Source: a virus. From it: a stretch of DNA of 23,681 nucleotides. Shown piece by piece: positions 1,149 to 20,155 of the stretch. The stretch spans positions 1 through 23,681 of IMG/VR virus record IMGVR_UViG_3300035698_006399; one strand, 5' to 3'. Both the position numbers and the translations under genes were made by a program. The number at the start of each line of letters is the position of its first letter. The stretch's first letter is position 1. The notes under the pieces were generated by a model, which was given only the letters and a program-made list of their open reading frames with translations, was not told where the DNA came from and did no database searches.

Positions 1149-1406
1149 CTACAATGAGGCAATGTAGTCAATGATTGACATACCTGCATCATTTGCTTTT
1201 TGTCTAACATCTGACAATGCTTTTAGATTTTCACGGTTTGCACGCTTTGAGCCTGCAGTCCTGTGAATTTCTGCCACGCCACGAATTTCAACTAACTCGG
1301 GAGCATATAACTCGCCGTCTACTTCAAAATTGCCGTCGTCGTTTTTGCTTGCATTGTAACTTGACAATGTTTTTGTTGTACTTTCAAGTCCTTTTATTGT
1401 TGACAT
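1149..1406 (-). CDS. 85-aa hypothetical protein with its own promoter and terminator
   Basis: The protein is hydrophilic: a Ser/Thr/Asn-rich N-terminus (residues 1-25), an acidic stretch (about 22-40), a basic middle (HRTAGSKRANRENLK, about 48-62) and a short hydrophobic C-terminus (SIIDYIASL). I recognise no family, and no Cys or His cluster is present. It forms a complete single-gene unit: a consensus promoter at 1479-1507, a weak AGG 12 nt before the ATG, and a strong intrinsic terminator starting 3 nt after the stop. Its base composition looks less AT-biased than that of its neighbours. The orientation opposes the late genes, so an early or lysogeny-type accessory role is an inference only. 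Confidence 0.75.
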   Translation of the reverse strand: MSTIKGLESTTKTLSSYNASKNDDGNFEVDGELYAPELVEIRGVAEIHRTAGSKRANRENLKALSDVRQKANDAGMSIIDYIASL

Positions 1407-1478
1407 AGTTTTGTTTACCTGTTGCTATTATGTAAGGTGTATTACATAATAACTATAATTTGTTAAGTAACTATTATT

Positions 1479-1507
1479 ATAATAGCATCATTTTTTTATT
1501 TTGTCAA
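1479..1507 (-). promoter_or_regulatory. Consensus sigma70-type promoter for the 85-aa gene
   Basis: On the minus strand TTGACA (1507-1502) is followed by a 17-bp spacer and TATTAT (1484-1479), overlapping a perfect TATAAT (1481-1476). This gives a start near 1470 and a leader of about 65 nt before the ATG at 1406. A TATAAT (1478-1483) also reads on the + strand across the same symmetric AT run. Confidence 0.85.
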
Positions 1508-1604
1508 CACCCCTAAAAATGAATAAATTCGGGGATATAAGGAAGGGGGGGTTCAAAAACCCGAATCAAGAGTAACAGGCTACCCCATATATATATTAGA
1601 CATG

Positions 1605-1689
1605 CCCTTCCCCCCACACTCCCATTCTCACACATTCTCACACATTCTCCCATTTTACCATTCCCCCACACTCCCACATTCACTTTTAT
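1605..1689. other. 85-nt G-free, C/T/A-rich tract
   Basis: The + strand has no G over 85 consecutive bases, with repeated words (CCCCCACACTCCCA twice, TTCTCACACA twice). The minus strand is correspondingly G-rich, with several G3-G6 runs. Just to the left, seven G's (1545-1551) begin a short hairpin, GGGTT/AACCC (1549-1562). No gene is convincing between 1407 and 1884. The tract ends directly at the extended -10 promoter of the late genes. Confidence 0.7.
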
Positions 1690-1697
1690 GTTATAAT
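1689..1697 (+). promoter_or_regulatory. Extended -10 promoter upstream of the packaging genes
   Basis: TGTTATAAT matches the extended -10 pattern TGnTATAAT, with no clear -35. It is the best + strand promoter before terS and would give a leader of about 180 nt. That leader has a possible long-range stem, CGTTTTC (1735-1741) with GAAAACG (1789-1795), around a poly-T stretch. Confidence 0.5.
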
Positions 1698-1884
1698 ATC
1701 ATTATTTATGCTAATTTATGCCCATTTGCGTCCACGTTTTCGGCTCTTTTTTTGCTCATTTATCGCTAAGGCTACACACTTTTTAGAAGAAAACGGAGCT
1801 GACTGTAACACTTTTCTGTTTCATACGTCTACTACAATGAAAGGGGTTAAATTTGTCAATTTATAGAGGAAAAAAGAAACAATC

Positions 1885-2349
1885 ATGAAAAAACTTACAG
1901 ACAAGAACATTAGATTCTGCGAAGAATATATTGTAGCTAATTATAATGGTACGGAGGCTTATCACCAAGCTTATACTAATCCAAATAAAAATACATGTGC
2001 AGTAGAAGCACATAGACTTCTTAATGAGGTAATGATTCAAAACAAGATAAAAGAGATAGAGGGGGATTATAGGATACTGGGGCATTCAATGGGAATCGAT
2101 AAGAAGTTTATTTTAAAATTATTAAAAGATCAATTTCAGGCAACAAAACCTGTTAAAGACGGGGGAGAGACTAAGGATAACATTGCGATAAATAATGCAA
2201 TCAATACCTGGGCTAAACTTACAGGAGAGTTTGCTGCAGAAAAACAAGAGATTATTACTACAGATATATCTGGTTTAGATAGAGATCCAACGGAAATGAC
2301 ACCAGAAGAAAGAGCTAAATTAGAGAAGAGCATTTTAGAAGAACTATAG
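1885..2349 (+). CDS. terS: Terminase small subunit
   Basis: The 154-aa product begins LTDKNIRFCEEYIVANYNGT followed by EAYHQAY and an ARRLL-like segment (EAHRLLNEVMIQNKI, about residues 42-57). This is the pattern of the terminase_2 family helix-turn-helix N-terminus, which recognises phage DNA and recruits the large subunit. Residues 60-115 are helical and fit the oligomerisation region. The acidic tail (residues 125-154, many Glu and Asp) fits the part that contacts the large subunit. The length is normal for the family. The gene opens the packaging module and is followed by small genes and the large terminase. An AGAGG run lies about 16 nt before the ATG. Confidence 0.85.
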   Translation: MKKLTDKNIRFCEEYIVANYNGTEAYHQAYTNPNKNTCAVEAHRLLNEVMIQNKIKEIEGDYRILGHSMGIDKKFILKLLKDQFQATKPVKDGGETKDNIAINNAINTWAKLTGEFAAEKQEIITTDISGLDRDPTEMTPEERAKLEKSILEEL

Positions 2350-2363
2350 AAGAACTTTAAAAT

Positions 2364-2371
2364 AAGGAGGT
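2364..2371 (+). promoter_or_regulatory. Strong Shine-Dalgarno before the 65-aa zinc-ribbon gene
   Basis: AAGGAGGT lies four bases before the ATG at 2375. Such a perfect site is unusual here, where most starts have A-rich leaders. Confidence 0.75.
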
Positions 2372-2374
2372 AAT

Positions 2375-2572
2375 ATGGTTTATTGTCATAATTGTGGTCG
2401 CTTTATACACGATCTATTACCAATTAAAGATTCTGAAACATGTTGGAAATGCAAATTGGAATGCAAATCATTTTATAAGGAGAAGACGTGTGAAAACAAA
2501 AAAGAAGAAGAATCTACATCATCTAACACCAAGAAGCCGAGGAGGCAAAAGCACAAAAAGGAACTTGCTTGA
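2375..2572 (+). CDS. Small zinc-ribbon protein
   Basis: The 65-aa product has two CxxC pairs in its first half (C4/C7 and C23/C26), typical of a zinc ribbon, then a highly charged Lys/Glu tail (residues 35-65) with no fold prediction. A perfect Shine-Dalgarno sets the start. The last ~80 nt overlap the HNH-like gene in another frame. It lies between terS and terL, where small nucleic-acid-binding accessory proteins are common. Binding DNA or packaging proteins is an inference; the zinc site is what the sequence shows. Confidence 0.65.
   Translation: MVYCHNCGRFIHDLLPIKDSETCWKCKLECKSFYKEKTCENKKEEESTSSNTKKPRRQKHKKELA
2477..2482 (+). promoter_or_regulatory. Shine-Dalgarno that selects a GTG start
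   Basis: AAGGAG lies seven bases before GTG 2490 and inside the preceding gene. It argues for starting the HNH-like gene at this GTG rather than at the upstream in-frame ATG 2394, which merely shadows the zinc-ribbon gene. Confidence 0.7.
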
Positions 2573-2729
2573 TATCTATATCGAGCGACACATTGCATGG
2601 CATCAGTTGTTCAGAAACAGAACACTGAAAGAGGTAATATCGCTTTTGAAGCGATTAGATCGGCTGAAGAAAGCAGGCACAAATGGTAGTAAGATGCAAG
2701 TTATGTACAAAAAAGATTTACTGGGCTGA
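2490..2729 (+). CDS. HNH-like small protein (GTG start, overlaps two neighbours)
   Basis: From GTG 2490 the product is 79 aa. It has a Lys-rich N-terminus, then HHLTPRSRGG (residues 10-19), NLL (25-27) and H34, followed by HQLF and an amphipathic helix. The order H-(I/L)xPxSxGG, then Asn, then His matches the beta-beta-metal core of HNH endonucleases, which are frequent beside terminase genes and in some phages are needed for packaging. The second half of the core is short and the usual zinc cysteines are absent, so it may be a reduced or non-catalytic member. It overlaps the 65-aa gene by 83 nt and the next zinc-ribbon gene by 47 nt. Confidence 0.65.
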   Translation: MKTKKKKNLHHLTPRSRGGKSTKRNLLDIYIERHIAWHQLFRNRTLKEVISLLKRLDRLKKAGTNGSKMQVMYKKDLLG

Positions 2730-2844
2730 TGTGTCCGAAAAAGAGTTGAGGTGGTGTATTTGCCACAAATGTATTAAGAATGTAGTATTCTTACCATCAA
2801 AAGATGAAAGAGTCTGCATACCAAAAGATAATTTAAAAACATAG
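2683..2844 (+). CDS. 53-aa zinc-ribbon protein
   Basis: ATG 2683 opens 53 codons ending in TAG at 2842-2844. CxxC at residues 5-8 and CICHKC at 25-30 form a four-cysteine zinc ribbon, followed by a short hydrophobic and charged tail. The frame differs from that of the overlapping HNH-like gene. The ribosome site is weak (GCAGG). It is the second small zinc protein in this cluster, which raises the chance that both are real. Specific function unknown. Confidence 0.6.
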   Translation: MVVRCKLCTKKIYWADVSEKELRWCICHKCIKNVVFLPSKDERVCIPKDNLKT

Positions 2845-2856
2845 CTCTTTATTAAA

Positions 2857-2932
2857 GGGGGGTTGTCCAGAACAACAAAACTTTGAGCCTAGCTCAAATA
2901 ATACCATAAATGGAACATACCCCCCCATTTTT
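2857..2932 (+). other. Multibranched (cloverleaf-like) intercistronic RNA element or terminator
   Basis: Six G's (2857-2862) face seven C's (2920-2926) and can close a junction that holds three hairpins. They are GTTGT/ACAAC (2862-2876), a perfect seven-pair TTTGAGC/GCTCAAA with a CTA loop (2882-2898), and a weak CCA/TGG (2904-2913). Five T's follow at 2928-2932, so it could act as a terminator. It is not a tRNA: the loops are too small and there is no T-loop. It lies in the gap between the zinc-ribbon gene and the 39-aa gene. Confidence 0.45.
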
Positions 2933-2953
2933 CTAACTAATAACTACAAACAT

Positions 2954-3073
2954 ATGCCCAATGGAGTACCAAGAACAGATAAAGAACGAATGGCAAGACA
3001 TAAATCAAAATATGGAAATTCTAATATCCCAAAACAAAGACAGGGGAAACAAAGAAGAATAGGTAGAAAATAA
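2954..3073 (+). CDS. 39-aa basic protein upstream of terL
   Basis: ATG 2954 opens 39 codons ending in TAA at 3071-3073, 10 nt before the terL ATPase half. The product begins MPNGVPRTDKERMARHKSKY and ends in an Arg/Lys/Gln-rich tail, so it is strongly basic. I recall similar short basic proteins of this layout near terminases in uncultured phage genomes, but no function is known. DNA or RNA binding is a guess from charge. Confidence 0.55.
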   Translation: MPNGVPRTDKERMARHKSKYGNSNIPKQRQGKQRRIGRK

Positions 3074-3083
3074 CGATTTTAAA

Positions 3084-3785
3084 ATGAGTGACGTTGTATA
3101 TTTAAAAAAACTATATCAAGATCAAAGGCTGCAAGATTTAGAATGGGCAAAATGCGTACAAGATCCATATTACTTCATGACGCACTGGGCTAAAACCCTA
3201 GATGTGCATGACGAAGAAGACCCAATCAGGTTATTTCCTAAAAAAGAGTACATTAAGATTATAGTAGATATTTGGCATGCTAGTCAATTACTACTTGTTC
3301 CAAAGTCACGTCAAATGATGATGTCTTGGATCTTTACTACTCTATACTTATGGGACACACAGTTTCATAAAGGAAAATTAACATTTTTTCAATCTAAGAA
3401 GTCAGATGATGCCGATGATTTAGTCAAACGTGCAAAGTTTGTCTACGACCATGAGCCCCGTTTTCTTAAACGTTTTTATGAGAATGGTCAGTTCCATGAG
3501 TTAAAGTGTAATCCACAGCACGCTGGACAGCATACGCAAGGGAAATTGACCTTTCCCCAAATAAATTCCGAAATCAGGGGTATACCTGAAGGAGGAGATA
3601 TTATACGTATGCATACCGCATCAGGAATATTATCTGACGAAATGGCTTTTCAGCCAGAGGCATCAGCAGCTTACACTGCCTCGAAGCCTACAATTTCAAG
3701 TATGGGTAAATTCACTGGGGTAAGCACGGCAGAAGATAATACTTTCTTTGAGGATATGGTGTTTGATAGAATAGACACAGTTTAA
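3084..3785 (+). CDS. terL: Large terminase, N-terminal ATPase half (split gene)
   Basis: The 233-aa product carries the packaging ATPase domain. A Walker A-like KSRQMMMS is at residues 74-81 (the classical P-loop variant of large terminases), the Walker B GILSDEMAF at 181-189 with D185/E186, and the coupling motif FTGVSTAED at 210-218. This motor hydrolyses ATP to drive DNA into the prohead at the portal. The frame stops shortly after the coupling motif, where a normal large terminase continues into the nuclease domain. That domain is found about 820 nt downstream as a separate ORF. Together the halves have the usual total length (about 550 aa). No intein or group I intron signal is visible. 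Confidence 0.85.
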   Translation: MSDVVYLKKLYQDQRLQDLEWAKCVQDPYYFMTHWAKTLDVHDEEDPIRLFPKKEYIKIIVDIWHASQLLLVPKSRQMMMSWIFTTLYLWDTQFHKGKLTFFQSKKSDDADDLVKRAKFVYDHEPRFLKRFYENGQFHELKCNPQHAGQHTQGKLTFPQINSEIRGIPEGGDIIRMHTASGILSDEMAFQPEASAAYTASKPTISSMGKFTGVSTAEDNTFFEDMVFDRIDTV

Positions 3786-3819
3786 ATATAGTTCTTTTAT
3801 TATAAATAACAAAAAATGT

Positions 3820-4041
3820 ATGTATTATCCATTCAAGGAAATCTCTGTTTATGAGTTAAGAGAGTTCATTAAAAAATATAAACCGAAAAGTTTAACGTTG
3901 AATATTGTTCAGGCAGATCAAATATATTCAAAGTTAGATGTGTTCCCATCAAAACCATTACAATTTAATGAGTTTAGTACAGAAGAACATCCGTTAGAAC
4001 ATCCGTTATCATTCGAAGGTTTACCAGTAATAATATTATAA
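3820..4041 (+). CDS. 73-aa hypothetical protein inside the terL interruption
   Basis: The product is soluble-looking, with a helical, Lys/Tyr-rich first part (residues 1-45), a repeated EHPLEHPL at about 55-62 and a hydrophobic end (LPVIIL). It resembles short phage structural or accessory proteins only in general character; no family is recognised. It follows the typical A-rich leader (AACAAAAAATGTATG) of this genome and is directly followed, one base later, by the metallopeptidase-like gene. It belongs to the ~0.85-kb segment that separates the two terminase halves. Confidence 0.55.
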   Translation: MYYPFKEISVYELREFIKKYKPKSLTLNIVQADQIYSKLDVFPSKPLQFNEFSTEEHPLEHPLSFEGLPVIIL

Positions 4042-4042
4042 T

Positions 4043-4636
4043 ATGCCAAAAGAAGTATTAAAGAGTAAAAAAAAACTCAAAAAGATCGTAAAAAAAGTCT
4101 CAAAGAAATCAATAAAGAGAAACGTAAAGAAGAGGATACTTACAAGTGGGGAAAACAATCAACTGTTTAACTTTCTTTGTAACCACGGAACAGAGATGCT
4201 TATTTGTTTACGCTTAACACATCACAAGGTTTATTTCGAAGATGGTCTTCGTGGAGACGACGCAAAAAGATTAGATAATGAAGTTGCTGCAATGATTTAT
4301 GTTAATCCAACGTACTTAGTTGCTACTATAAATATAGCAAAGAATGTTAAGGAACTGTGGAGAATAAAAAGATATGAAGTAATCCTCGATATATTAATAC
4401 ATGAGATATGCCACATTGTAGTAGATCCATTATATTTTTCTTATGAGAACTGTGTAAAGGAACATACACCAAAAGATTCTATACAAAATTTTAAAGAAGG
4501 TGACAAACAAAGAGAACAGATAACAGAACATGTAAGTAGATGGGGTTCTAGATTATATAAAGATTATAGAAAAGAAAATAATGTTAATTTAAAAACTGGA
4601 AAATGTATAAGGACATCAAGAAAAAAGAAATCATAA
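4043..4636 (+). CDS. HExxH metallopeptidase-like protein inside terL
   Basis: The 197-aa product has a strongly basic N-terminal tail (residues 3-31, mostly Lys) and a catalytic-type helix DILIHEICHIV with HEICH at 120-124. A downstream Glu-containing helix (REQITEHVSRW, about 157-167) could supply the third zinc ligand. This is the layout of small zincin peptidases (SprT or minigluzincin style). Zinc binding and proteolysis are inferred from the motif; the substrate is unknown. The last ~34 nt overlap the start of the terminase nuclease ORF, so translation of that half may be coupled to this gene. It carries no homing-endonuclease motif. Confidence 0.7.
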   Translation: MPKEVLKSKKKLKKIVKKVSKKSIKRNVKKRILTSGENNQLFNFLCNHGTEMLICLRLTHHKVYFEDGLRGDDAKRLDNEVAAMIYVNPTYLVATINIAKNVKELWRIKRYEVILDILIHEICHIVVDPLYFSYENCVKEHTPKDSIQNFKEGDKQREQITEHVSRWGSRLYKDYRKENNVNLKTGKCIRTSRKKKS

Positions 4637-5586
4637 AAGGCTTAAAGTATTGGAAAAATCCAAAAAATAACTTTAGCGTTCTGATGTTACATTATACAGC
4701 AGATCCATATAAAGATCCAGACAGACATGGTAAAGAATGGTTCGAGAAAGAACAAAAGGGGGCTCTGAAAGCTCTTTGGAATAAGGAGATGGAAGTAGAC
4801 TTTACCACTAAGTCTGGTAAACTAATATTTGGACCAGAGTACTGTGACTTTGATTCAAATACACATTTTATTGACTCATTTCAATATGAGAATCCTGTTG
4901 AGCAACTAATAAGCCTAGACTTTGGTCAAAGGAATCCAACCTGTGCATTAGTTGGTGTATGGACGACGCAAAATGTTCTTTACATAGTAGACGAGTACTT
5001 CAACCCAGCTATACCATCTGTCACTTCACGTGAAATGTTTGATAAGTTTGGTTATTTAATGGGTGGTGTTGATAACCTTGGAATAAATGATCGTAGAAGT
5101 AGAGCTATTAATCGCTTTGGTGTAAGGGTTATTGATCCAACTACCAGAGCAAAAAATAGAGTTGCTGTTAAAAATGGTGAAGAAATAGAGTACTCAGTTA
5201 TAGAAGAATTTGAAGATAATGGTTGGGAGTTTGAAGCAGGTTCTAACGATGTACCTTCTGGTATTACAAGAGTTAGAGAATACTTTAAACTAGACAATAA
5301 AAAGAAAGCACATTTATATATTTTCAAAGACATGTGTCCAAATCTTTGTAGAGAGTTAAAAAACTACCGTTATAAAGAGTACACAGAGATACAGGCTAAG
5401 ACACGTAACAAATCAGAAGATCCTATAAAGAAAGATGACCATGCTGTCGATGCGTTAAGGTACATGATAATGACACGACCAAACACGCCATCAAAACCAG
5501 CAGTGGAAAAGACAAGGATACAAAAGGATATAGAAAGACTTTTAAAACCTAAAATTCTAAATAATAGTGAGTGGGACACGACATAA
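4603..5586 (+). CDS. terL: Large terminase, C-terminal nuclease half (split gene)
   Basis: The 327-aa frame begins at the only ATG after upstream in-frame stops, within the end of the metallopeptidase gene. From about residue 11 it reads as the continuation of a large terminase: HYTADPYKDPD (30-40), then the RNase H-like nuclease with LISLDFG (D106), VIDPTTR (likely D178) and DDHAVDALRY (D283) near the end. This domain cuts the DNA concatemer. The first ~10 residues (MYKDIKKKEI) overlap the neighbouring gene and look like an acquired start. Without splicing, the ATPase and nuclease would be separate polypeptides, presumably assembling as one motor. Confidence 0.85.
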   Translation: MYKDIKKKEIIKGLKYWKNPKNNFSVLMLHYTADPYKDPDRHGKEWFEKEQKGALKALWNKEMEVDFTTKSGKLIFGPEYCDFDSNTHFIDSFQYENPVEQLISLDFGQRNPTCALVGVWTTQNVLYIVDEYFNPAIPSVTSREMFDKFGYLMGGVDNLGINDRRSRAINRFGVRVIDPTTRAKNRVAVKNGEEIEYSVIEEFEDNGWEFEAGSNDVPSGITRVREYFKLDNKKKAHLYIFKDMCPNLCRELKNYRYKEYTEIQAKTRNKSEDPIKKDDHAVDALRYMIMTRPNTPSKPAVEKTRIQKDIERLLKPKILNNSEWDTT

Positions 5587-5604
5587 TAAATAACAATAAA
5601 AAGT

Positions 5605-5829
5605 ATGTTAAATTTTGGAGAAGCATTAGAAGCTTTAAAATCAGGTAAACAAGTTACAAGGGATAATTGGAATGGTGAAGGAATGTTCCTTGAACTTCAA
5701 GTACCAGACGAAAATAGCAAAATGAGTTTACCTTACATTTACATTAATACAGTAGATGAAACATTAGTTCCTTGGGTAGCATCGCAAACCGATATGTTAT
5801 CAAAAGACTGGATTGAATTAACCGAATAA
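5605..5829 (+). CDS. tad2: DUF2829 / Tad2-like protein (probable anti-Thoeris)
   Basis: The 74-aa product matches the DUF2829 pattern: NFGEALEALKSGKQVTRDNW at the N-terminus, then GMFLEL, then LVPWVASQTDMLSKDW at the end (about residues 54-69). DUF2829 proteins include Tad2, a phage protein that soaks up the cyclic ADP-ribose signal made by the ThsB sensor of the bacterial Thoeris defence, so the NAD-destroying effector is not triggered. The length and all signature segments are intact. The family call is strong; the anti-defence role is inferred, because not every family member has been tested. It follows terL with the A-rich leader AACAATAAAAAGTATG. Confidence 0.85.
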   Translation: MLNFGEALEALKSGKQVTRDNWNGEGMFLELQVPDENSKMSLPYIYINTVDETLVPWVASQTDMLSKDWIELTE

Positions 5830-5856
5830 CTATTTAAATAAATAACAATAAAAAGT

Positions 5857-6120
5857 ATGGCAAGAAAAGAACAAGATGGTGAGATAATCAATCCACCAAT
5901 TAAACAATCAAGACAATCAAAAGCACCAAACGAACAAGCAAGGATAGATCCAGATTTTGAAGCAAGAGCAAGAGCGTATCAAGAACAAGTTGAACTTTTA
6001 CAAAAGAAATTCGACATTGCACAGAGACCAATCATTACTCCATATGGTCCAGATATTCAACTATTTGATGCTACACCACAAGAAGAGAAACCACAAACAG
6101 AAACAATTGCTAGAATATAA
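5857..6120 (+). CDS. 87-aa hypothetical protein
   Basis: The product is hydrophilic, with a disordered Gln/Ser/Lys-rich N-terminus (residues 1-30), a helical middle rich in Ala, Arg and Glu (31-55) and a Pro-rich end. It has no membrane segment and no recognisable motif. Its leader is identical over 23 bp to that of the Tad2-like gene, so the two are probably expressed alike. It precedes groES with 11 nt spacing. Function unknown. Confidence 0.6.
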   Translation: MARKEQDGEIINPPIKQSRQSKAPNEQARIDPDFEARARAYQEQVELLQKKFDIAQRPIITPYGPDIQLFDATPQEEKPQTETIARI

Positions 6121-6131
6121 CCAAAAAATGT

Positions 6132-6383
6132 ATGAAAGTAGAACCAAAAGAAGGTGTTTTATTAATTAAGAAACACGAAAAAACTAAACTGAAGGTTGAC
6201 ATTGTTACTACAGAAACTGACGAGGACAAAAGATTGATTACTGGTGAAGTCCTAGAAGGTTCGTTAAAAGGTAAGACTGTAATCTTTGGTAAGTACGCAA
6301 TTTATGAATTAGTATTGCAAGGCGAAAAGTTCTTCTTCTTAAACGAAGAAGATACAATTGGCGTTTGCGATTATAAAGAATAA
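6132..6383 (+). CDS. groES: GroES-like co-chaperonin
   Basis: The 83-aa product aligns by eye with GroES. It starts MKVEPKEGVLLIKKHE and has TGEVLEG at 37-43, KGKTVIFGKYA at 46-56 (GroES: GDKVLFGKYA), then GEKFFFLNEEDTIGV at 64-78 (GroES: GEEYLILREDDILAV). The region expected to hold the GroEL-binding mobile loop (about residues 17-32) is shortened and lacks the usual Gly-Gly-Ile/Val pattern; only DIV remains as a hydrophobic triplet. It lies 4 nt before groEL, the same order as in bacterial operons. It probably caps the phage-encoded GroEL ring. Confidence 0.8.
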   Translation: MKVEPKEGVLLIKKHEKTKLKVDIVTTETDEDKRLITGEVLEGSLKGKTVIFGKYAIYELVLQGEKFFFLNEEDTIGVCDYKE

Positions 6384-6387
6384 AAAC

Positions 6388-7953
6388 ATGTATAAAGAAA
6401 TCTTATTTGAGGAAGATGCACGTAAAAAGATTATTGATGGTGTAAACACAGTCGCAAAAGCTGTAAACATTACACTTGGTCCTAAAGGACAGAACGTAAT
6501 CTTTGAAGAGAGCACATTTCCAACAATTACAAAAGACGGTGTAACAGTAGCCCAGCAAATATTCTTAGAAGATAAGTTCGAGAATATGGGTGTAATGCTC
6601 GCACGTGAGTGTGCAGAGAATACTAACCGAGATGCTGGAGATGGCACAACAAGTACAATAGTACTTTTACAATCAATGGTTAAAGAAGCCAATAAATACA
6701 TTGTTGCAGGAATGAATCCAATCCTTATTAAAAGGGGTATGGATATAGCATTAAAACAAATTTTAATTAATTTGGAAAAGCAAGTAAAGAAAATAAAAAC
6801 AGACGAAGAGAAGTTACAGATTGCTACAATTTCTGCCAATAATGATGAAAAACTTGGCAAGTTAATTAGCGATGTTATTAAAAAGATAGGTGCAGATGGT
6901 ATAGTGACGACGCAAAACTCTAACTCAGTTGAAACTGAAGTAGAATACGTTAAAGGTTTACAATTAAATAGTGGATATGAGTCTCACATGTTTATTAACG
7001 ACTCACGAAGGTTGGCTACTGCTATGGATAATCCAACCATAATTGTTTGTACAGATGCTATTATAAACCAAGACCAATTAGTACCTATTATAGAAAACTT
7101 AGTTACACAAAGTAAAAGACAATTAGTATTATTTTCAGATAAAATCGAAGGAAGTGCTTTAGCATTTTTAGTGCAAAATCACTTACTTGGTAAATTTACA
7201 TGCGTTCCTGTCAAGTTACCATCGTTTGGTGATTACAGGAAAGACTTAATATACGACTTAGCAACACTTGTTAATGCTACCGTTCTTGGTAATGAAGAAG
7301 CTGTTACGTTGGAAAATGCTACATCAGAAGAATGTGGTACATGCAAGAGCCTTATTGTTACAAGAGATAAGACAATTATATCTGGTGGCGAAGGCAATAT
7401 CAGTAATAAGATTACTGAAGTAAAATCAATGCTAAAGGATGAAAAAGATATCTTTAAGCAGGAAAAATTAAAAGACAGACTTGGTAGATTGACTGGATCT
7501 GTCGCAAATATTAAAGTAGGTGGTGCTTCCGAGACGGAACAAACCGAAATTAAATATAGAATAGAAGATGCGTTAAATTCAACTAAAGCTGCTATTAAAG
7601 AAGGTATAGTAGAAGGTGGTGGCGTTGCTTTACTTAAATGTTTAGATCCATTTGAATCTAACCAAAAAGAAATTAATGCTGGATTATCTATAGTATATAA
7701 TTCTCTTAGAAAACCATTAGAGAAGATAGCAGAAAACGCTGGAGAGAATGGAGAAGCAATATCATCTAAGGTTTACGATATAGGTTTAGGTTACAATGCT
7801 TTAACTTCTAACTTTGGTGATTTGTTTAAGATGGGAGTTATAGATCCTTTCAAAGTAGTTAAAAATGAAATACAAAACTCTGTTGCGACTGCTGGTATAT
7901 TAATTACATCAGGAGCTGCAATTGCATTAAAGGAGAAAAAAGATGACAAGTAG
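6388..7953 (+). CDS. groEL: Phage-encoded chaperonin GroEL
   Basis: From ATG 6388 the protein is 521 aa, slightly shorter than bacterial GroEL (about 548). Intact motifs include TLGPKG (29-34), PTITKDGVTVA (45-55, with the D52 equivalent at D50), AGDGTT (83-88, catalytic D85), GMNPILIKRG (108-117), a full apical domain, and RIEDALNSTKAAIKEGI (391-407, with the D398 equivalent at D394) followed by VEGGGVAL. The tail is KEKKDDK instead of the Gly-Gly-Met repeats. ATP-driven folding of phage proteins, probably the capsid or other virion parts encoded just downstream, is the likely role. An in-frame ATG at 6358 lies inside groES and would add ten unmatched residues, so 6388 is preferred. Confidence 0.95.
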   Translation: MYKEILFEEDARKKIIDGVNTVAKAVNITLGPKGQNVIFEESTFPTITKDGVTVAQQIFLEDKFENMGVMLARECAENTNRDAGDGTTSTIVLLQSMVKEANKYIVAGMNPILIKRGMDIALKQILINLEKQVKKIKTDEEKLQIATISANNDEKLGKLISDVIKKIGADGIVTTQNSNSVETEVEYVKGLQLNSGYESHMFINDSRRLATAMDNPTIIVCTDAIINQDQLVPIIENLVTQSKRQLVLFSDKIEGSALAFLVQNHLLGKFTCVPVKLPSFGDYRKDLIYDLATLVNATVLGNEEAVTLENATSEECGTCKSLIVTRDKTIISGGEGNISNKITEVKSMLKDEKDIFKQEKLKDRLGRLTGSVANIKVGGASETEQTEIKYRIEDALNSTKAAIKEGIVEGGGVALLKCLDPFESNQKEINAGLSIVYNSLRKPLEKIAENAGENGEAISSKVYDIGLGYNALTSNFGDLFKMGVIDPFKVVKNEIQNSVATAGILITSGAAIALKEKKDDK

Positions 7954-8456: not shown

Positions 8457-10304
8457 ATGGAGCTTAAAGATCTCAGAGGAAAAGTTGAGACTGGCAAAAA
8501 TAGCGGTGATACAGCCAAGTTTATCTCTACTCTTTACGATGATTCTTCAAGAATGTTCTTGAAACAACATCGTGATTGGTACATCAATGAACGTTTTGCA
8601 AGAGGTGATCATTGGATTGTTTACAATAAAACATTAAATAAAGTTCAATCTTTACCAGTTAGTGATGGAGAAATCCGCAGAACTGTTAATAAAATACGAT
8701 CACAGATACGTGGTATTAAAAACTTTATTAAAAAGAATCAACCACGTTGGGAAGTACACCCAGACGATGTTACCGATGAAGCAATGGCTGAAGCTAAGAA
8801 AAAGAATAAAATACTTCAGAACATTTACAGAACACGAAGACTTCCATTAGCATTAACAGATCAAATTGTTAATTCAATGAAGTTTTCTGTTGGTATATTA
8901 GAAGCTGGTGTTATTAAAAAGGATGGTAAAGATTATTTAGACTTTTGGGTAGATGATACATTTGATATAATATTTGATCCAATTGCTACAAAGGTACAGG
9001 ATTGTAGGTTTATTATAAAGACTTTTAAAAAGCCAGTAACTACAATTAAGAGTACATATGATGTTAAAACAATTGTAGCAGATAACAAAGAAGCTGCTGC
9101 TCAATATAAAGAACAGTTAGAGAATGAAAAATATAATCGTGGTGGTGGTAAAGGAAAAGATTTAGAAACATCTATTATTAGAGAGTTTTGGTTAAAATGG
9201 GAAGAAGATGGTAAACAAAAAGTTAGAGTAATAACAAGTATAGATAATCAAGTATTAAGAGTATTCGATACATCATATAAGCGTTATCCGTTTTTCATAT
9301 ATAATCCAGAGAAGACGTCTAATTCAATTTATTCTGATCCCTGGATTAAGGACCTTATTTCACTTAATAAGTCCTTAGATAAGACAGCATCGCAAATTGA
9401 AACATACATTCAACGTATGCTTGGTGGTAAGTATCTTATCAAACAAGGCGTTGAAGTATCTACAATAACCGATAAGGGTGCTGAAAAGATTTACTATAAA
9501 GGTAATGTCCCACCAGTACAGCAAAACTTACAACCACTACCTGCTGCTCCGTTTACATACACGAACAGCTTAGAGAGGTGGATAGAAGAACTTGGTGGCA
9601 TTAGAGAAGCAAGTCTTGGCAGAATGCCAGGATCTGCACAGTCTGGAAAAGCAATTGAGGCACTTCAGCTTGCAGATGCTGGTACAGTAGCTGAACCAAT
9701 AGAAGCATTAGAGTTAATGCTTGAAGATGTTGGTGAATTTGTACTAGAAGTTATTTCAGATTATAATTTAGCCTCAGAGGAGATTATAGAAGATGGTGAA
9801 AAAATTAAGTATGTGGGTGATATCAAAAATCCCCCTCAGGATGCAACTGTTGTTAAGCCAGCTCAGGTTAAGGTAGTAATCGTACCAGAGGTAGCATACT
9901 CAGAAGAAGCTAAAAAAGAATGGATATTAAGACTAGCAGAAGCTGGATTGGTTGATGCTGAAACAGTACTTGAGAAGTTTTCAATATCTAATATTGGAGA
10001 TATTATCGAAAGAGTTAGAAAACAAAAAGAAGAACAGTATAAAGAAGAAATGATGAAGCAAAAAGAATCTCACAGAACATCTGGTGAAGCTCCAGAGGAT
10101 AGTGCAGACTTAGCAGACCAAGAGAATATGCAAATGGCTGCTGGACAGCAAGTACCTGCAACACCACAAGCATTGTGGACACCAGAGCATCTTGAATTAC
10201 ATATGGCATTTATACAACAGAATGCAGATGCATATGATCAAGTTGGAATTAAAGAATTATTCGATGATCATATAACAACCGAACAAGGATATTCACAACA
10301 ATAA
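8457..10304 (+). CDS. Portal protein
   Basis: The 615-aa product fits a tailed-phage portal: an N-terminal helical segment with WYINERFARGDHW (about 40-52), RRTVNKI and IRGIKNFIKKNQPRWEV (about 80-100), a wing region with the beta segment DFWVDDTFDIIFDP, a helical stem region around 280-320 and a conserved-type SGKAIEALQLADAG (about 395-408). The C-terminus is helical and Gln/Met-rich, as in portals with a barrel. Twelve copies form the vertex through which DNA is packed and the tail is attached. Its position between the terminase and scaffold/capsid genes supports the call. The start follows SpoVG by 3 nt. Confidence 0.85.
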   Translation: MELKDLRGKVETGKNSGDTAKFISTLYDDSSRMFLKQHRDWYINERFARGDHWIVYNKTLNKVQSLPVSDGEIRRTVNKIRSQIRGIKNFIKKNQPRWEVHPDDVTDEAMAEAKKKNKILQNIYRTRRLPLALTDQIVNSMKFSVGILEAGVIKKDGKDYLDFWVDDTFDIIFDPIATKVQDCRFIIKTFKKPVTTIKSTYDVKTIVADNKEAAAQYKEQLENEKYNRGGGKGKDLETSIIREFWLKWEEDGKQKVRVITSIDNQVLRVFDTSYKRYPFFIYNPEKTSNSIYSDPWIKDLISLNKSLDKTASQIETYIQRMLGGKYLIKQGVEVSTITDKGAEKIYYKGNVPPVQQNLQPLPAAPFTYTNSLERWIEELGGIREASLGRMPGSAQSGKAIEALQLADAGTVAEPIEALELMLEDVGEFVLEVISDYNLASEEIIEDGEKIKYVGDIKNPPQDATVVKPAQVKVVIVPEVAYSEEAKKEWILRLAEAGLVDAETVLEKFSISNIGDIIERVRKQKEEQYKEEMMKQKESHRTSGEAPEDSADLADQENMQMAAGQQVPATPQALWTPEHLELHMAFIQQNADAYDQVGIKELFDDHITTEQGYSQQ

Positions 10305-11389: not shown

Positions 11390-12604
11390 ATGGCACAGTC
11401 AGTTACAAACCTGGCAGGAGCAGCAATGAGAGTTTATGACAAAGTTGTTCATGAACAGATATTTACAAAGAACGTACTTTGGAATAACATCTTAAGAAAC
11501 GTTGCTCATACACAGGGTTCGACTTCTAAATACATGTCAGTACATAGGGGTCGTAATGTTGGTTCTGCTGCTGGTAGTGAATCTTTCACTTTACCAACTG
11601 CTGGAAATCAACAGTACACACAAGCAACAATTACGATGAAATATAACTTTCATCAGATCAGTTTAACTGATGTTGCTTTACAAGCGTCAAAAAGGTCAAA
11701 AGAGTTTTTAGTTAACGCATTAGAATCAGAATACAATGGTGCTAAAAACGATATGCAGCGACAGTTAAGTCGTCAAGGTTATGGTGTAGGTACAGGTGTG
11801 ATTTGTCGTGTAAACGATGGGGCAGTTGATACCACACTAACGTTCGATACTCCAATGGTTGGTAAGTATCCAGCAGATTACTTTGATATCGACAATGCAA
11901 TCATGTTTGATTCTACTGCTGGTTCTGCTACCAGTGCAGCTTATACTACGGTTACAGCTATTACTGGTAACTATGACATGACAGTTACAAGTGCTAGTGG
12001 TGTAGCAGATGACGATTACGTTTATCTTGCTCACGCTAATGGAACTACAAGTCCAACAGTTTCTAATATTAATGCTGAGGTTTTAGGACTAAAGGCATTG
12101 ATTGACGATTCTAGTAACTTAGTAACATTGCATAACATTAGCAGATCTACATACATTTGGTGGAAATCATATGTAAGTTCAAACGCTACACAGCGTTCTT
12201 TAACAGAGGATCTAATGCACACAACCTACTTAGAGAGTAGGAAAAAAGGTAATCCTTCATACGGATTAACTCACTTTGATGTGTATAGTGCTTTCGGACA
12301 GATATTGAGTCCAGACAGACGATATACCAGTAAAATGCAACTTAACGGTGGCTTTACAGGTTTAGAGTTTAATGGTCTTCCAATTGTCCCTGATTACGAC
12401 TGCCCTTACGACGAACTATATTTCGTTGACAAGAGCACACTATCAGTAGAAGATTTAGCCCCAATTTCATTTTTGAATGAAGATGGTTCTATTTTAGACA
12501 GAAGTGCGACAACTCCTGCTTGGAATGCTACATTGAGATACTACGCTCAGTTAGCAAACTCAGCTCCTAACAAGAGTTCTGCCCTTAGAGACGTAATTAA
12601 ATAG
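11390..12604 (+). CDS. Major capsid protein
   Basis: The 404-aa product is of the size and order expected for an HK97-fold major capsid protein. It has an N-terminal arm (1-45), a beta-rich segment with QITMKYNFHQISLTD-type strands (about 75-100), a long helix (EFLVNALESEYNGAKNDMQ, 105-125), a Thr/Ala/Asp-rich beta insertion (about 155-215) and C-terminal strands including LPIVPDYDCP. The Gly/Ala/Thr-rich composition and higher G+C than the sugar cassette fit a highly expressed structural gene. It directly follows the scaffold-like gene, and two strong hairpins lie after its stop. The fold is inferred from context and general pattern. Confidence 0.8.
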   Translation: MAQSVTNLAGAAMRVYDKVVHEQIFTKNVLWNNILRNVAHTQGSTSKYMSVHRGRNVGSAAGSESFTLPTAGNQQYTQATITMKYNFHQISLTDVALQASKRSKEFLVNALESEYNGAKNDMQRQLSRQGYGVGTGVICRVNDGAVDTTLTFDTPMVGKYPADYFDIDNAIMFDSTAGSATSAAYTTVTAITGNYDMTVTSASGVADDDYVYLAHANGTTSPTVSNINAEVLGLKALIDDSSNLVTLHNISRSTYIWWKSYVSSNATQRSLTEDLMHTTYLESRKKGNPSYGLTHFDVYSAFGQILSPDRRYTSKMQLNGGFTGLEFNGLPIVPDYDCPYDELYFVDKSTLSVEDLAPISFLNEDGSILDRSATTPAWNATLRYYAQLANSAPNKSSALRDVIK

Positions 12605-14408: not shown

Positions 14409-15047
14409 ATGACCTATACCAATCGAATTAATTCTAATCCAATTAAACTTGGAAGTAGCGTAGAGATACGTTCTGGTGCATCTAGCACTGCAGCTACAAT
14501 TGCTGCTGAGTATGTTACAACTGGTTACGAGCCTAGTGTTGGTACATTATATTTATCTACATCTGGGATAGCTTTTATACATGATAGTTCTGGTACTACT
14601 TCTTATAACTGGTCTGCATTATCAGATCTTGGTCCATCAGCGAGTCCATCGTTGAGCCAATCCTTAAGTCCAAGTATCAGTTCTTCGACAAGTCCTAGTA
14701 CTTCATTGAGTCCAAGTATTAGTCCTTCAACAAGTCCTAGTACTTCATTGAGTCCAAGTATTAGTCCTTCAACAAGTCCTAGTACTTCTCTAAGTCCTAG
14801 TTTGAGTCCAAGTTTGAGTCCAAGTATCAGTCCTTCGACAAGTCCTAGTACTTCTCTAAGTCCTAGCATTAGTCCATCGGTAAGTCCTAGTACATCATTG
14901 AGCCCAAGTTTGAGTCCAAGTATCAGTCCTTCGACAAGTCCAAGTCAATCTTTAAGTCCAAGTTTAAGTTCATCAATTTCTCCTAGTATAAGTCCTTCAG
15001 TATCTCCTGAACCATCAGTAAGTCCTTCTGTAAGTCCTTCAATTTAA
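14409..15047 (+). CDS. Ser-Pro-Ser repeat virion protein
   Basis: The 212-aa product has an N-terminal beta-type domain of about 75 residues (including EYVTTGYEPSVGTLYLSTSG) and then about 135 residues of SPS-based low complexity (LSPSISPSTSPSTS and variants) to the end. The repeat is probably extended and heavily Ser/Thr-rich, and could act as a flexible stalk or be glycosylated; the nearby glycosyltransferases make the latter worth testing. At the DNA level a 42-bp unit is repeated exactly (14688-14729, 14730-14771), so copy number may change by slippage. It is probably a surface or tail-associated protein, inferred from position and composition. Confidence 0.65.
   Translation: MTYTNRINSNPIKLGSSVEIRSGASSTAATIAAEYVTTGYEPSVGTLYLSTSGIAFIHDSSGTTSYNWSALSDLGPSASPSLSQSLSPSISSSTSPSTSLSPSISPSTSPSTSLSPSISPSTSPSTSLSPSLSPSLSPSISPSTSPSTSLSPSISPSVSPSTSLSPSLSPSISPSTSPSQSLSPSLSSSISPSISPSVSPEPSVSPSVSPSI
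14688..14771. repeat. 42-bp exact tandem repeat inside the Ser-Pro-Ser gene
   Basis: Two identical 42-bp units (14 codons) lie at 14688-14729 and 14730-14771; a third, diverged copy begins at 14772. Shorter AGTCC-based repeats continue to about 15040. The unit is a multiple of three, so gain or loss keeps the frame. Confidence 0.9.
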
Positions 15048-16462: not shown

Positions 16463-17251
16463 ATGAAGTTATCTATAGTTATACCAAGTTATAAAGACCC
16501 ATTGCTACATAAAACAATAGATGATTTACTAGAAAAAGCAGAGGGTGAAATAGAGATAATTCCAGTTCTAGATGGTTATTGGACAACAGAGCCAATCAGG
16601 GAAGATCCACGTATTAAAATAGTACACCTTGGAAAAAACAGGGGTATGAGAGATGCTATTAATGCTGGTGTGCTTGTTTCTACTGGTGATTACTTAATGA
16701 GAGCAGATGAGCACCAAATGTTTGATAAGGGGTTTGATACAAAGATATTAAGCACTATAGAAGACAATTGGATAGTAACACCTAGAAGATACGCACTTGA
16801 TGTTAAAAAGTGGGAGATAATGGATGAGATTCCTCCTGTTGATTATATGGCATTAAGAATAGGTAGAGTTAGCGATACTGTTAGTAAGTTTGCTGGAGTT
16901 GTTAAACCAGGAGATGATAAACAGATGATTCAGGAAAGTATGGCTATGCAAGGTAGTTGTTGGTTTATGAAAAAAAGCTTGTGGGAAAATGTTATTGTTA
17001 AATTACAGACAGAAGGATATGGTCCACTTTACCAAGACTCACATGAGATGGTGTTTAAATTATGGAAAGCTGGTGGTAAGTTAATGATTAATAAGAATAC
17101 ATGGCACGCACACAAACATAGAAGCTTTCCAAGAACACATAATAATGGGACTAAAGAGAACCCATCAAATAATGAACAATGTTTTAAATATTCATTAGAA
17201 CAATGGCAAGAGTACTTTGAAAAAGAGATTAAATCTAAATGGAAGACATGA
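16463..17251 (+). CDS. GT2-type glycosyltransferase 1
   Basis: The 262-aa product opens with SIVIPSYKDPLLHKTIDDLL (GT-A nucleotide-sugar fold), then VLDGYW (35-40) and NRGMRDAINAGV. The metal-binding site is ADEHQ (81-85), a DEH form of the DxH motif, and MQGSCWFMKK and KNTWHAHKH follow. This family transfers a sugar from a nucleotide donor; DxH is also used by polypeptide GalNAc-transferases. It is one of four paralogs in this cassette. Its stop overlaps the next start in ATGA. The start is set by the preserved SIVIP context at residue 4. Confidence 0.85.
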   Translation: MKLSIVIPSYKDPLLHKTIDDLLEKAEGEIEIIPVLDGYWTTEPIREDPRIKIVHLGKNRGMRDAINAGVLVSTGDYLMRADEHQMFDKGFDTKILSTIEDNWIVTPRRYALDVKKWEIMDEIPPVDYMALRIGRVSDTVSKFAGVVKPGDDKQMIQESMAMQGSCWFMKKSLWENVIVKLQTEGYGPLYQDSHEMVFKLWKAGGKLMINKNTWHAHKHRSFPRTHNNGTKENPSNNEQCFKYSLEQWQEYFEKEIKSKWKT

Positions 17252-18162
17252 TTAGTATAATTATACCAGCATATAAAGAACCTTTTCTTAATAAAACAAT
17301 TGATTCTTTACTTAAAAATGCTGTTGATGAAATTGAAATAATACCAGTATTTGATGGATGGAAATTAAATGAAGATTTAATTGTAGATGATAGAGTCAAA
17401 CCTATTTATTTTAAAAAACAACAAGGTATGCGTTCAGCTATTAATGCTGGTATTAAAACTGCCACAGGAAAGTTTATCATGAAAGTAGATGCTCATTGTG
17501 CTTTTGCACCTGGCTTTGATAAAGTATTAACTGATAGTTGTAAAGATAATTGGTTAATGATTCCAATGCGTTATTCTCTTATAGAAAACACGTGGGAAAG
17601 AAATAAGAGAAGATTAGTTGTAAATTATCATTATATTAATTTTCCAATGATAGTTGATTATGGTTTGAGTATATTTCCAATGAATTGGACAAAAATGACA
17701 CTTAAACGTAGAGACTCTAAGTATAATATAGATGATACAATGACATTTCAAGGTAGTTGTTGGTTAGCTAATAGACAATACTTTTTAGATAAGATTGGTT
17801 TATTAAATGGTAGTATAGATGCTTATGGACAATTTGGTTGTGAACAATTAGAGATTGGATTAAAGTATTGGCTAGGTGGTGGCGAAGTAAAGGTAAATAA
17901 AAATACTTGGTATGCTCATTTGTGTAAAATGAAAAAACATTATGCAAAGAACATATTTTCTCGTATTTATAAAAAAAATATATATACAAAAAAAACAAGA
18001 GCATGGTGTACTGACCATTGGTTAAATAATAAGGAGCCAAATATGATTCATGATTTTTCTTGGTTAATTGAAAAATTTTGGCAAATTCCTACATGGAATG
18101 ATAATTGGCAAGAAGAATATAAAAAATTAGAAGTATATGCAAGAAAAAACAAATTTATGTAA
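17248..18162 (+). CDS. GT2-type glycosyltransferase 2
   Basis: I chose ATG 17248, which overlaps the previous stop as ATGA and gives MISIIIPAYKE, matching the starts of its paralogs; ATG 17239 is a possible earlier start. The 304-aa protein has FDGW (35-38), GMRSAINAG (60-68), the DxH motif VDAHCAFAPGFD (80-91), FQGSCW and KNTWYAHL near 215-225. A basic C-terminal part (about 225-304) extends beyond the catalytic core. Acceptor and donor sugars cannot be read from the sequence. Confidence 0.85.
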   Translation: MISIIIPAYKEPFLNKTIDSLLKNAVDEIEIIPVFDGWKLNEDLIVDDRVKPIYFKKQQGMRSAINAGIKTATGKFIMKVDAHCAFAPGFDKVLTDSCKDNWLMIPMRYSLIENTWERNKRRLVVNYHYINFPMIVDYGLSIFPMNWTKMTLKRRDSKYNIDDTMTFQGSCWLANRQYFLDKIGLLNGSIDAYGQFGCEQLEIGLKYWLGGGEVKVNKNTWYAHLCKMKKHYAKNIFSRIYKKNIYTKKTRAWCTDHWLNNKEPNMIHDFSWLIEKFWQIPTWNDNWQEEYKKLEVYARKNKFM

Positions 18163-18718
18163 ACTAGCGTTTAAATATAAAACAGATAAATGTGTTGAGT
18201 TTAAACATAACTATACACCTCTTTATTATGAATTATTTAATCCAATAAAAGATAAAGTAAAAAAAGTTTTAGAGATAGGTATTGGTGGTCCAGATATAAT
18301 GACACATTGTGGAGATGATTATGTACTTGGTGCAAGTCTACATATGTGGAGAGATTTTTTCCCACAAGCACAAATATATGGTATAGATATTATTCCAGAG
18401 TATGTTTTTGAAAAAGATAGAATTAAAACATTTGTAAAAGACCAAAACAGTAAAGACGATTTAGAAAGTTTAATTAAAGAAATTGGTAATGACATTGACA
18501 TAGTTATAGATGATGGTTGTCATCGTAGTAAATCACAAATATTTAGTTGCAAAACATTAATGCCATTATTAAAAAAAGATGTTATATATGTAATTGAAGA
18601 TATGTTTTTACCAAATACTGTTAATAAGGCTATGTCAAAAGATTATGATTGTAATTTAATTAGAGCTACTGATAAAAGAAGAGACAGTTGGTTATTGATA
18701 ATTAAAAATAAAAAATGA
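18137..18718 (+). CDS. SAM-dependent methyltransferase 1
   Basis: The 193-aa product fits class I methyltransferases of the macrocin/cephalosporin-type group seen in sugar clusters: KYKTDK...HNYTPLYYELF, then VLEIGIGG (44-51, the SAM glycine loop), SLHMWRDFFPQAQIYGIDI (68-85, acidic residue D84) and VIDDGCHRS (about 122-130, probable metal or catalytic site). Members O-methylate sugar hydroxyls. The start overlaps the preceding glycosyltransferase by 26 nt, and the stop overlaps the next ATG, so it is translationally coupled within the cassette. Confidence 0.8.
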   Translation: MQEKTNLCKLAFKYKTDKCVEFKHNYTPLYYELFNPIKDKVKKVLEIGIGGPDIMTHCGDDYVLGASLHMWRDFFPQAQIYGIDIIPEYVFEKDRIKTFVKDQNSKDDLESLIKEIGNDIDIVIDDGCHRSKSQIFSCKTLMPLLKKDVIYVIEDMFLPNTVNKAMSKDYDCNLIRATDKRRDSWLLIIKNKK

Positions 18719-19299
18719 ATATTGAAACAGTAATTAAAGACTTAAATGATTTAGATGTTCATCGTCATCGTAGAATATGGAAACCATTTATGGAAAAATA
18801 TGATTGTCAGGTAATTGCAGAATTAGGAGTAAGGTCTGGACAAAACTTTTTAGAAATGATTGCACATAATCCTAAAGAAGCTGTGGCAGTTGATTGTTGG
18901 ATAGATGATGGTGTATTAGCTAGAAATGATACGCTAGGAACACAAGATGCTCTTGACAAACAATATTTAGATTTTAATAAAAAAGTTGAAGATAAGCTCT
19001 TTGTTAAAATTAATAGAGGATATACCATAGAAGAAGTTAAACATTTTGAAGATAATTATTTTGACTTAATCTATGTAGACGCTGACCATACATACTCTGC
19101 TTGTTTACGTGATATAGTAGATTGGTATCCAAAAGTTAAATCTGGTGGATTTTTATTAGGAGATGACTATAGACCTGGATATAAAACTTCATCTGGTATT
19201 GTATTTGGAGTAGTAGAGGCAGTAAAAGAATTTGCAAAAAATAATAATTTAAAATTTTATCCAATAAGTTATCATGGGTGGGTTATTATAAAACCATAA
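18715..19299 (+). CDS. SAM-dependent methyltransferase 2
   Basis: The 194-aa product has the class I SAM-binding loop IAELGVRSGQN (34-44), an acidic strand end AVAVDCW (57-62), and FDLIYVDADHTYSACLRDI, the DxDH block of methyltransferase_24-type enzymes, often sugar O-methyltransferases. LLGDDYRPG follows as a likely metal or substrate loop. The start ATG overlaps the previous TGA (ATGA). It presumably caps or decorates the glycan made by the flanking transferases. Confidence 0.8.
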   Translation: MNIETVIKDLNDLDVHRHRRIWKPFMEKYDCQVIAELGVRSGQNFLEMIAHNPKEAVAVDCWIDDGVLARNDTLGTQDALDKQYLDFNKKVEDKLFVKINRGYTIEEVKHFEDNYFDLIYVDADHTYSACLRDIVDWYPKVKSGGFLLGDDYRPGYKTSSGIVFGVVEAVKEFAKNNNLKFYPISYHGWVIIKP

Positions 19300-19300
19300 T

Positions 19301-20155
19301 ATGTTATCAATAATAATACCAGCAAGAACAGAAAAGTTTCTTAATCGAACAATTGAAGATGTTTTATTTAAAGCGACTGGTGAAATTGAAGTTTTGGTTG
19401 TTTTAGATGGGTATGGAGACCATCCTTATAAGCCAATCAAAGATAAAAGAGTAAAGTATATTTCTTTTCCTTTGCCCTACAACGATGAAAGAAGAAAACG
19501 ACAAGCTGTTAATGCTGCGGTATCAATTTCTAATGGAGAATATATTTGTTGGCTAGATGCTCATTGTGTTGTAGCTCCTGGCTTTGATAAAGTTTTAATT
19601 AGAGATTGTCAAGACGATTGGGTAATAGTTCCAAGTAGATATTACATGGATATAGAAAAATGGGATAGAGTAATTTCACCAGATTTACCACCAGAAGATT
19701 ATAGATATTGGCAATGGTCTTCTTTAAAAAGTGGAAAGCGTTTTAAACAATGGAGATGGGGTAAAAAGTGTGAAGATAGAAAGGATGTTTTAATAGATGA
19801 TATTTTTTGTACACAAGCTTCGTTTTTCTTTATGAAACGTAAGTGGTTTGATAAATGTGGTTTTATGAAAACTGAAGGATATACTGGTTGGGGTGAAGAG
19901 GGAGAAGAAATTTGTATGACAACGCTTCTTAATGGTGGTAGAGTAGTAGTTGATAAAAATACTTGGTATGGTCATCTAGGAAAAGAACAGATGGGAAAAC
20001 GAATGTATAAATATGTAAGTGTTGAACCGTGCTATGAATATTCGTATAATTATTGGATTAATGAACAAAAAGAGTTTTTTATTAAAACAATAAATAAGTT
20101 TATGCCGATACCTAATTATCCGTTAAACTGGGAAGATATAATTTATGAAAATTAG
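19301..20155 (+). CDS. GT2-type glycosyltransferase 3
   Basis: The 284-aa product starts MLSIIIPARTEKFLNRTIED and has VLDGYGD (34-40), RRKRQAVNAAVSISNGEY, the DxH motif LDAHCVVAPGFD (85-96), TQASFFFMKR, an EEGEEI segment in the acceptor part and KNTWYGHL near 222-229. It therefore shares the domain order of the other three GT2 paralogs but has TQAS where they have QGS. It begins one base after the methyltransferase and overlaps the next gene by 11 nt. Confidence 0.85.
   Translation: MLSIIIPARTEKFLNRTIEDVLFKATGEIEVLVVLDGYGDHPYKPIKDKRVKYISFPLPYNDERRKRQAVNAAVSISNGEYICWLDAHCVVAPGFDKVLIRDCQDDWVIVPSRYYMDIEKWDRVISPDLPPEDYRYWQWSSLKSGKRFKQWRWGKKCEDRKDVLIDDIFCTQASFFFMKRKWFDKCGFMKTEGYTGWGEEGEEICMTTLLNGGRVVVDKNTWYGHLGKEQMGKRMYKYVSVEPCYEYSYNYWINEQKEFFIKTINKFMPIPNYPLNWEDIIYEN

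Follow-up and report, generated by a model that had tools for sequence, protein, structure and literature searches.

Is the large terminase (TerL) of a tailed phage necessarily a single chain, or can the packaging motor be made of two separately translated proteins? The question is raised by the stretch of viral DNA considered here (23,681 nucleotides in all, hereafter the window), which carries a tailed-phage packaging and head module in the order small terminase, terL-N, gene A, gene B, terL-C, portal and major head protein. The small terminase subunit gene (1885-2349, + strand; Pfam Terminase_2, E 1e-10) lies 5' of terL in the same packaging module, and the portal and major head protein are encoded at 8457-10304 and 11390-12604. 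The terL sequence itself is found as two complete genes in different frames: terL-N (3084-3785, + strand, 233 aa), which ends with ...STAEDNTFFEDMVFDRIDTV and a stop codon, and terL-C (4603-5586, + strand, 327 aa), which begins MYKDIKKKEIIKGLKYWKNPKNNF at a start common to relatives. Two complete ORFs sit between them, gene A (3820-4041, + strand, 73 aa) and gene B (4043-4636, + strand, 197 aa), and the end of gene B overlaps the terL-C start by 34 nt (4603-4636, + strand). An earlier reading made from the sequence alone (hereafter the sequence-only reading) had described terL halves separated by two complete genes, and it had the coordinates right: the ORFs are present and the same break recurs in 64 contigs. 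It had the nuclease half resume at about 4630 or 4640, in frame with an ATG at 4603; the ATG stands, but the point of resumption does not, since conserved coding sequence (MYKDI...) starts earlier. By comparison among these contigs, the split of terL at the gene level is established.

Both halves can be identified as TerL. The product of terL-N, which has homologues in the 64 contigs, matches T4 gp17 (E 4e-7 in a PDB profile search) and TerL PHROGs (phrog_5989, E 6e-10; phrog_2 over profile positions 275-415). T4 gp17 is also the top fold match of its AlphaFold model (pLDDT 73, pTM 0.75; Foldseek TM 0.63). The product of terL-C matches several TerL PHROGs and other families: Terminase_3C (Pfam, E 8e-8), phrog_5653 (E 1e-17), phrog_2 (positions 421-607) and the TerL of phage D6E (E 1e-9); its AlphaFold model is poor (pLDDT 43). 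Within the ASCE ATPase core encoded by terL-N, the Walker A motif KSRQMMMSW (3303-3329, + strand) is deviant, with its lysine first and no GK[ST], and K74 and M78/M79 are invariant in alignment A1; among terminases, phage lambda is the comparison for such a motif. Deviant Walker A motifs in terminases were already known, at least from Mitchell and Rao (2004) as that work is cited in PMC5727402. The end of Walker B with the catalytic carboxylate (SDE of GILSDE, 3633-3641, + strand; D185 and E186 invariant in alignment A1) is followed by the coupling (C) motif STA (3723-3731, + strand), which lies 17 residues ahead of the terL-N stop and aligns beside the C-motif region of T4 gp17. In terL-C, the first RuvC acid D106 (LDFGQ, 4918-4920), the last RuvC acid D283 (DDHAVDALRY, 5449-5451) and D178 (VIDP, 5134-5136), likely the second RuvC acid by an inferred role, are all on the + strand and invariant in alignment A2. 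Of the properties expected of a TerL, this one shows an RNase H/RuvC-like nuclease with conserved acids and an ASCE core with Walker A and B, a coupling motif and the catalytic Glu (motifs that vary little or not at all in A1, with Walker A deviant); it lacks the union of core, lid and nuclease in a single polypeptide, with two ORFs in each of the 64 contigs.

The location of the break was determined by alignment to full-length TerL. In D6E TerL, the ASCE subdomain and the lid are followed by a linker of 12 residues (230-241) and then by the nuclease (PMC5727402). Residues 22-291 of terL-C align with D6E chain positions 191-416 (M216 and R224, residues that are named, suggest a chain numbering offset of 3), and this alignment makes residues ~22-65 of terL-C the lid, followed by the linker and the nuclease. 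On this basis terL is broken within the ATPase domain, where the ASCE core ("engine") gives way to the lid ("transmission"). The split had initially been placed between the ATPase and nuclease domains, with the ATPase domain ending just past the coupling motif. The split itself and the end of terL-N are borne out, but the junction precedes the lid, so that the ATPase/nuclease linker is intact and the ATPase domain of terL-N is not complete, its lid being in terL-C. In fused relatives, the same spot is a length-variable tether (e.g. FDQLDKGEGDVVKTDSKFKKIYPMEGVEVWKNPKNEF) that connects the first strand of the lid to the helix following the coupling motif, and split members break within this tether. 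The ends of the halves are conserved, terL-N closing with FFEDxVFDxxEx and a stop codon and terL-C starting M-Y-x-D-I.

The 64 contigs with separate terL-N and terL-C ORFs and the same break come from many metagenomes and comprise 39 with table-11 halves (the window included), 3 that read TGA as glycine and 22 further ones. Wherever the contig of a close IMG/VR relative (~49-86% identity in N) includes both halves, they are separated at this same position, and the gap between the halves ranges from -8 to 2237 nt across split contigs. In 19 of the 39 contigs the gap is 20 nt or less (-8, -8, -4, -4, -4, -1, 1, 1, 2, 3, 4, 6, 8, 13, 13, 16, 18, 19 and 20 nt), the remaining gaps of this set being of 94 to 2237 nt. 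The near-nil gaps still hold the stop of N and the start of C, sometimes as an ATGA overlap (L019/L059, L081, L251); this and the other terL-N/terL-C overlaps are typical of coupled translation. In eight long records, N and C each map to a single place, the intein-broken ones excepted, and the terL profiles found no second TerL in these eight. Whole inteins were observed within the halves of some relatives, at Walker B of terL-N (L067:3517-5034) or beside the final RuvC motif (DDH/DALRY) in terL-C (L034:3265-4806, L042:4056-5861, L076, L077, L080); that of L042 contains an overlapping HNH-like ORF in another frame.

Joined end to end, terL-N and terL-C align to the fused relatives with no part missing. 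Among relatives, dN is 0.12-0.13 against a dS of 2.3-5.1 for terL-C, and 0.10 with saturated dS for terL-N; by these rates both halves are under purifying selection. The pieces of a genes-in-pieces enzyme should be both selected and jointly complete, and this is the case here.

We consider it very probable that the TerL of this lineage is such a genes-in-pieces enzyme, whose two translated chains most likely associate non-covalently into the motor protomer. Two genes, a fixed boundary, purifying selection, the motifs, recurrent changes and cargo turnover are demonstrated at the level of sequence; non-covalent assembly and the mechanical role of a lid acting in trans are inferred, without protein or RNA data or a model of the complex. 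Because both proteins are conserved and nothing else supplies a TerL, a two-protein motor is strongly implied, with translocation, cutting and assembly into an active enzyme remaining inferences. The suggestion in the sequence-only reading that the motor may truly be of two polypeptides is supported, as a stop and a start still divide terL into two ORFs in relatives whose gap is only -8 to 20 nt.

According to this model, each half would be translated from its own start codon, terL-N supplying the ASCE ATPase core (Walker A and B, catalytic Glu, coupling motif) and terL-C the lid, the linker and the RuvC-type nuclease, and the two chains jointly hold every TerL element in the correct order with none missing. 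The lid would close in trans over the nucleotide pocket of the core and would hand the stroke on to the nuclease/translocation domain, to which it is covalently joined. In the wider family, the linker between core and lid has been opened (or closed again) on several occasions, and an opened linker acts as an ordinary gene boundary at which cargo genes (A and the zincin-like B; elsewhere HNH nucleases, a tRNA and kinases) come and go. Split motors are not automatically functional: T4 gp17 cut at the ATPase/nuclease linker kept both activities, and DNA translocation was abolished (PMC3012670, PMC9958956). The lid of gp17 (subdomain II) is the transmission that couples engine to wheel via that hinge (PMC3012670, PMC9958956) and, compared with this artificial cut, the split phages retain the ATPase/nuclease hinge as a covalent connection and break one joint upstream. 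A bolder form of the two-chain model is also possible, although we hold it only tentatively and think it rather doubtful: the motor would be hetero-oligomeric, with a core ring and separate lid-nuclease units that bind and leave during packaging, no covalent core-lid link would be needed to couple ATP hydrolysis to DNA movement, and the recurrent fission would mark the linker as a mechanically dispensable joint.

Among the alternatives, the one that survives best concerns the genes in the gap. Gene A has no function assigned (dN 0.41, dS 0.97) and its only homologue was found in L055, at the same place, with 46% identity. Gene B encodes a zincin-like protein (HEICH and a downstream conserved E; dN/dS ~0.24-0.31) that matches SprT/WLM models far below cut-offs; both genes look selected from their dN and dS. 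Zincin-like genes of the B family (HExxH...E) are found directly 5' of terL-C in L054 (2962-3465), L055 (534-1034), L056 (1132-1515), L067 (5606-6031), L040 (1698-2096) and L006, and L078 has a member (2365-2739) in the gap, one gene further upstream of terL-C. The recurrence of these genes at this position in several deep branches, one of them reading TGA as glycine, would be expected if the zincin-like protein were a working partner of the split terminase, i.e. a packaging or assembly factor rather than cargo. However, a profile search did not find the zincin-like gene in 7 of the 8 larger records and the gap is empty in many members of the clade, and we regard such a partnership as unlikely.

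Other gaps have other contents. Endonucleases occur in some (NUMOD3/HNH in L067 and L070, HNH in L057, a LAGLIDADG-containing ORF in L054); there is none in the gap of the window, nor in many others. The L054 gap (1232-3468) contains a tRNA, a cytidylyltransferase-like gene, the HAD-like/LAGLIDADG ORF, an APS-kinase-like gene and the zincin-like gene, that of L103 a sugar epimerase and that of L078 a thioredoxin-like protein. Even sister contigs differ, L057 having a gap of 450 nt with an HNH gene and L063 one of 2 nt. Since gap content differs even between nearest kin, the core/lid boundary is an insertion point, and the inserts have the look of cargo that this boundary tolerates. It is plausible, from the analogous case of Aeh1 nrdA (PMC2988022), that insertion of a homing endonuclease founded the split; a frameshift or stop in the tether, e.g. 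in L251, is an equally possible founder.

An unusual intron would leave A and B as intron-encoded passengers, ~0.85 kb being spliced from the mRNA to restore one TerL. The herpesvirus terminase gene UL15 has two exons around whole genes that are spliced in eukaryotic nuclei; like the terL of the window it consists of two coding blocks with genes between, and unlike it, it is spliced. Splicing of terL is also known from phages: Vibrio phage ICP1 (PMC10448857) and Bacillus phage Silence (PMC4599081) likewise have two terL coding blocks, spliced to one mRNA or with a group I intron, whereas the window has two translated genes and no intron. The HNH/NUMOD3 endonucleases in the gap of some relatives would fit an intron as well. 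Against it, no group I core had been seen initially, and Rfam searches for group I and II introns gave no match at the gathering threshold in the window (snoRNA-like noise only at relaxed E-values) and, in nine relatives, two tRNAs only and no intron. Moreover, an intron cannot fit in inter-ORF gaps of -8 to 20 nt, where terL is still split, and conservation extends to the ATG and first residues of terL-C, a part that this intron would excise. Relatives with near-nil gaps cannot make a spliced single mRNA, and by parsimony neither does the window; splicing from 3783 to 4640, which the sequence-only reading had kept as a possibility, is refuted for the family and very unlikely in the window, and we consider the intron highly improbable.

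We give equally little weight to a continuous product made by ribosome hopping, frameshifting or protein trans-splicing. The overlaps of 1-8 nt in relatives could allow a frameshift to join the frames, but neither frameshifting nor known hopping can bridge gaps that reach 2.2 kb and hold other genes (in one case a tRNA), and for trans-splicing the halves in the window have no intein-like piece at the break and the inteins of relatives are whole and internal to a half. An intein as the cause of the split in the window was rejected, those of relatives sitting in halves at Walker B and RuvC motifs; the first description of the insert as two genes and not an intein holds, the halves having no intein-like ends. 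Still less credible is a decaying terL, broken by insertion while another terminase packages the DNA: mobile elements often disrupt phage genes, but here the motifs are all invariant, dN is far below dS, the entire clade is split across deep divergence and profiles found no second TerL in long records. Least of all can the split be an assembly chimera or a sequencing frameshift, as this metagenomic contig comes without read-cover evidence but the same break is carried by independent contigs from many metagenomes, one of them (L055) with homologues of A and B in the same order.

To place the split in the wider family, the latter was scanned with a profile of distant split sequences (L045-L049), which gave 80 loci: 48 fused, 30 split (8 contigs already known) and 2 with only N in the available stretch. 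The fused members have ORFs of ~480-570 aa, some longer with inteins; with L050 and L051 added to these 48, relatives with one continuous gene exist, as a genes-in-pieces enzyme demands. A tree of 82 TerL implies at least 7 changes between split and fused states, 4 of them forced by supported branches, and places the window in a 28-row clade (support 100) that is entirely split, as is its neighbour L103 (96). This tree, which replaced an earlier one of 40 rows with too few fused relatives and long branches, was built quickly and retains some long branches (L050, L051, L103), which leaves the exact number of changes soft; single split contigs, e.g. L229 beside the fused L228, could be sequencing frameshifts. 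From its supported branches, it is well supported that fission (or fusion) at the TerL linker occurred more than once. One origin for all splits was rejected by the same tree, although the window's own clade is uniform.

Essential enzymes made as two polypeptides, with genes between the two coding parts, are known from T4-like phages, namely Aeh1 nrdA (mobE), T4 topoisomerase gene 60 (mobA) and the Aeromonas phage gene 43A/43B, and for nrdA and gp43 the fragments can assemble into an active enzyme (PMC2988022). The split described here resembles these cases and differs from them in that it concerns TerL, is fixed clade-wide and recurrent in the wider family, and in that most inserts are not homing endonucleases. 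The single-chain TerL of T4 (gp17) and of phage D6E have the same core-lid-nuclease order and motifs; that of the window lineage is two polypeptides, broken between core and lid. No previous description of a split TerL came up in the open-access literature searched (subscription literature was outside the scope). The general view is that every tailed phage packages its DNA with a single-chain TerL; by what means the core moves the lid and nuclease remains debated. A lineage with its engine encoded apart from transmission and wheel would indicate that evolution can drop this covalent link, complementing the finding in T4 that the other one must stay intact. The split TerL would be a ready two-component motor for reconstitution and a natural test of how motor parts must connect. 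In TerL-based phage trees and in annotation the halves would be misread as short or partial terminases, and short "terminase large subunit" PHROGs families may include halves of this kind.

Three split relatives, L039 (2593-4532), L040 (892-3084) and L041 (301-2086), use code 25, with TGA as glycine: TGA occurs in frame 46 times across their N and C reading frames, and TAA and TAG never; of the 36 TGA columns at which the relatives give a majority residue, 26 have Gly; and reading through TGA lifts the ORF cover of these loci from 0.03-0.10 to 0.59-0.72. Since this is the code of Absconditabacteria/Gracilibacteria (PMC10746230, PMC13059738), part of the phage family probably infects Patescibacteria. 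In the window itself, 5 of the 33 genes use TGA as stop. No match to terL-N was found in GTDB contigs, and the best matches of the window's GroEL are only 40-43% identical, to mixed bacteria and phages, and point to no host. This phage-encoded GroEL (6388-7953) lies with a GroES-like gene (6132-6383) inside the packaging and head module. Directly after terL-C is a gene with a Tad2-like (Thoeris anti-defence 2) domain (5605-5829; Pfam, E 2e-25). An identical 20-mer, AAATAACAATAAAAAGTATG, is present at 5588-5607 and 5840-5859, each copy running into the start codon of one of two consecutive genes (chance expectation 0.08). Most genes in the window lack a Shine-Dalgarno and are preceded by A-rich leaders. 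In the virion gene region, the protein encoded at 14409-15047 contains a long S-P-S/L-S-P low-complexity repeat tract, and 16463-22762 appears, by eye only, to be a run of glycosyltransferase and methyltransferase genes with several tandem paralogues.
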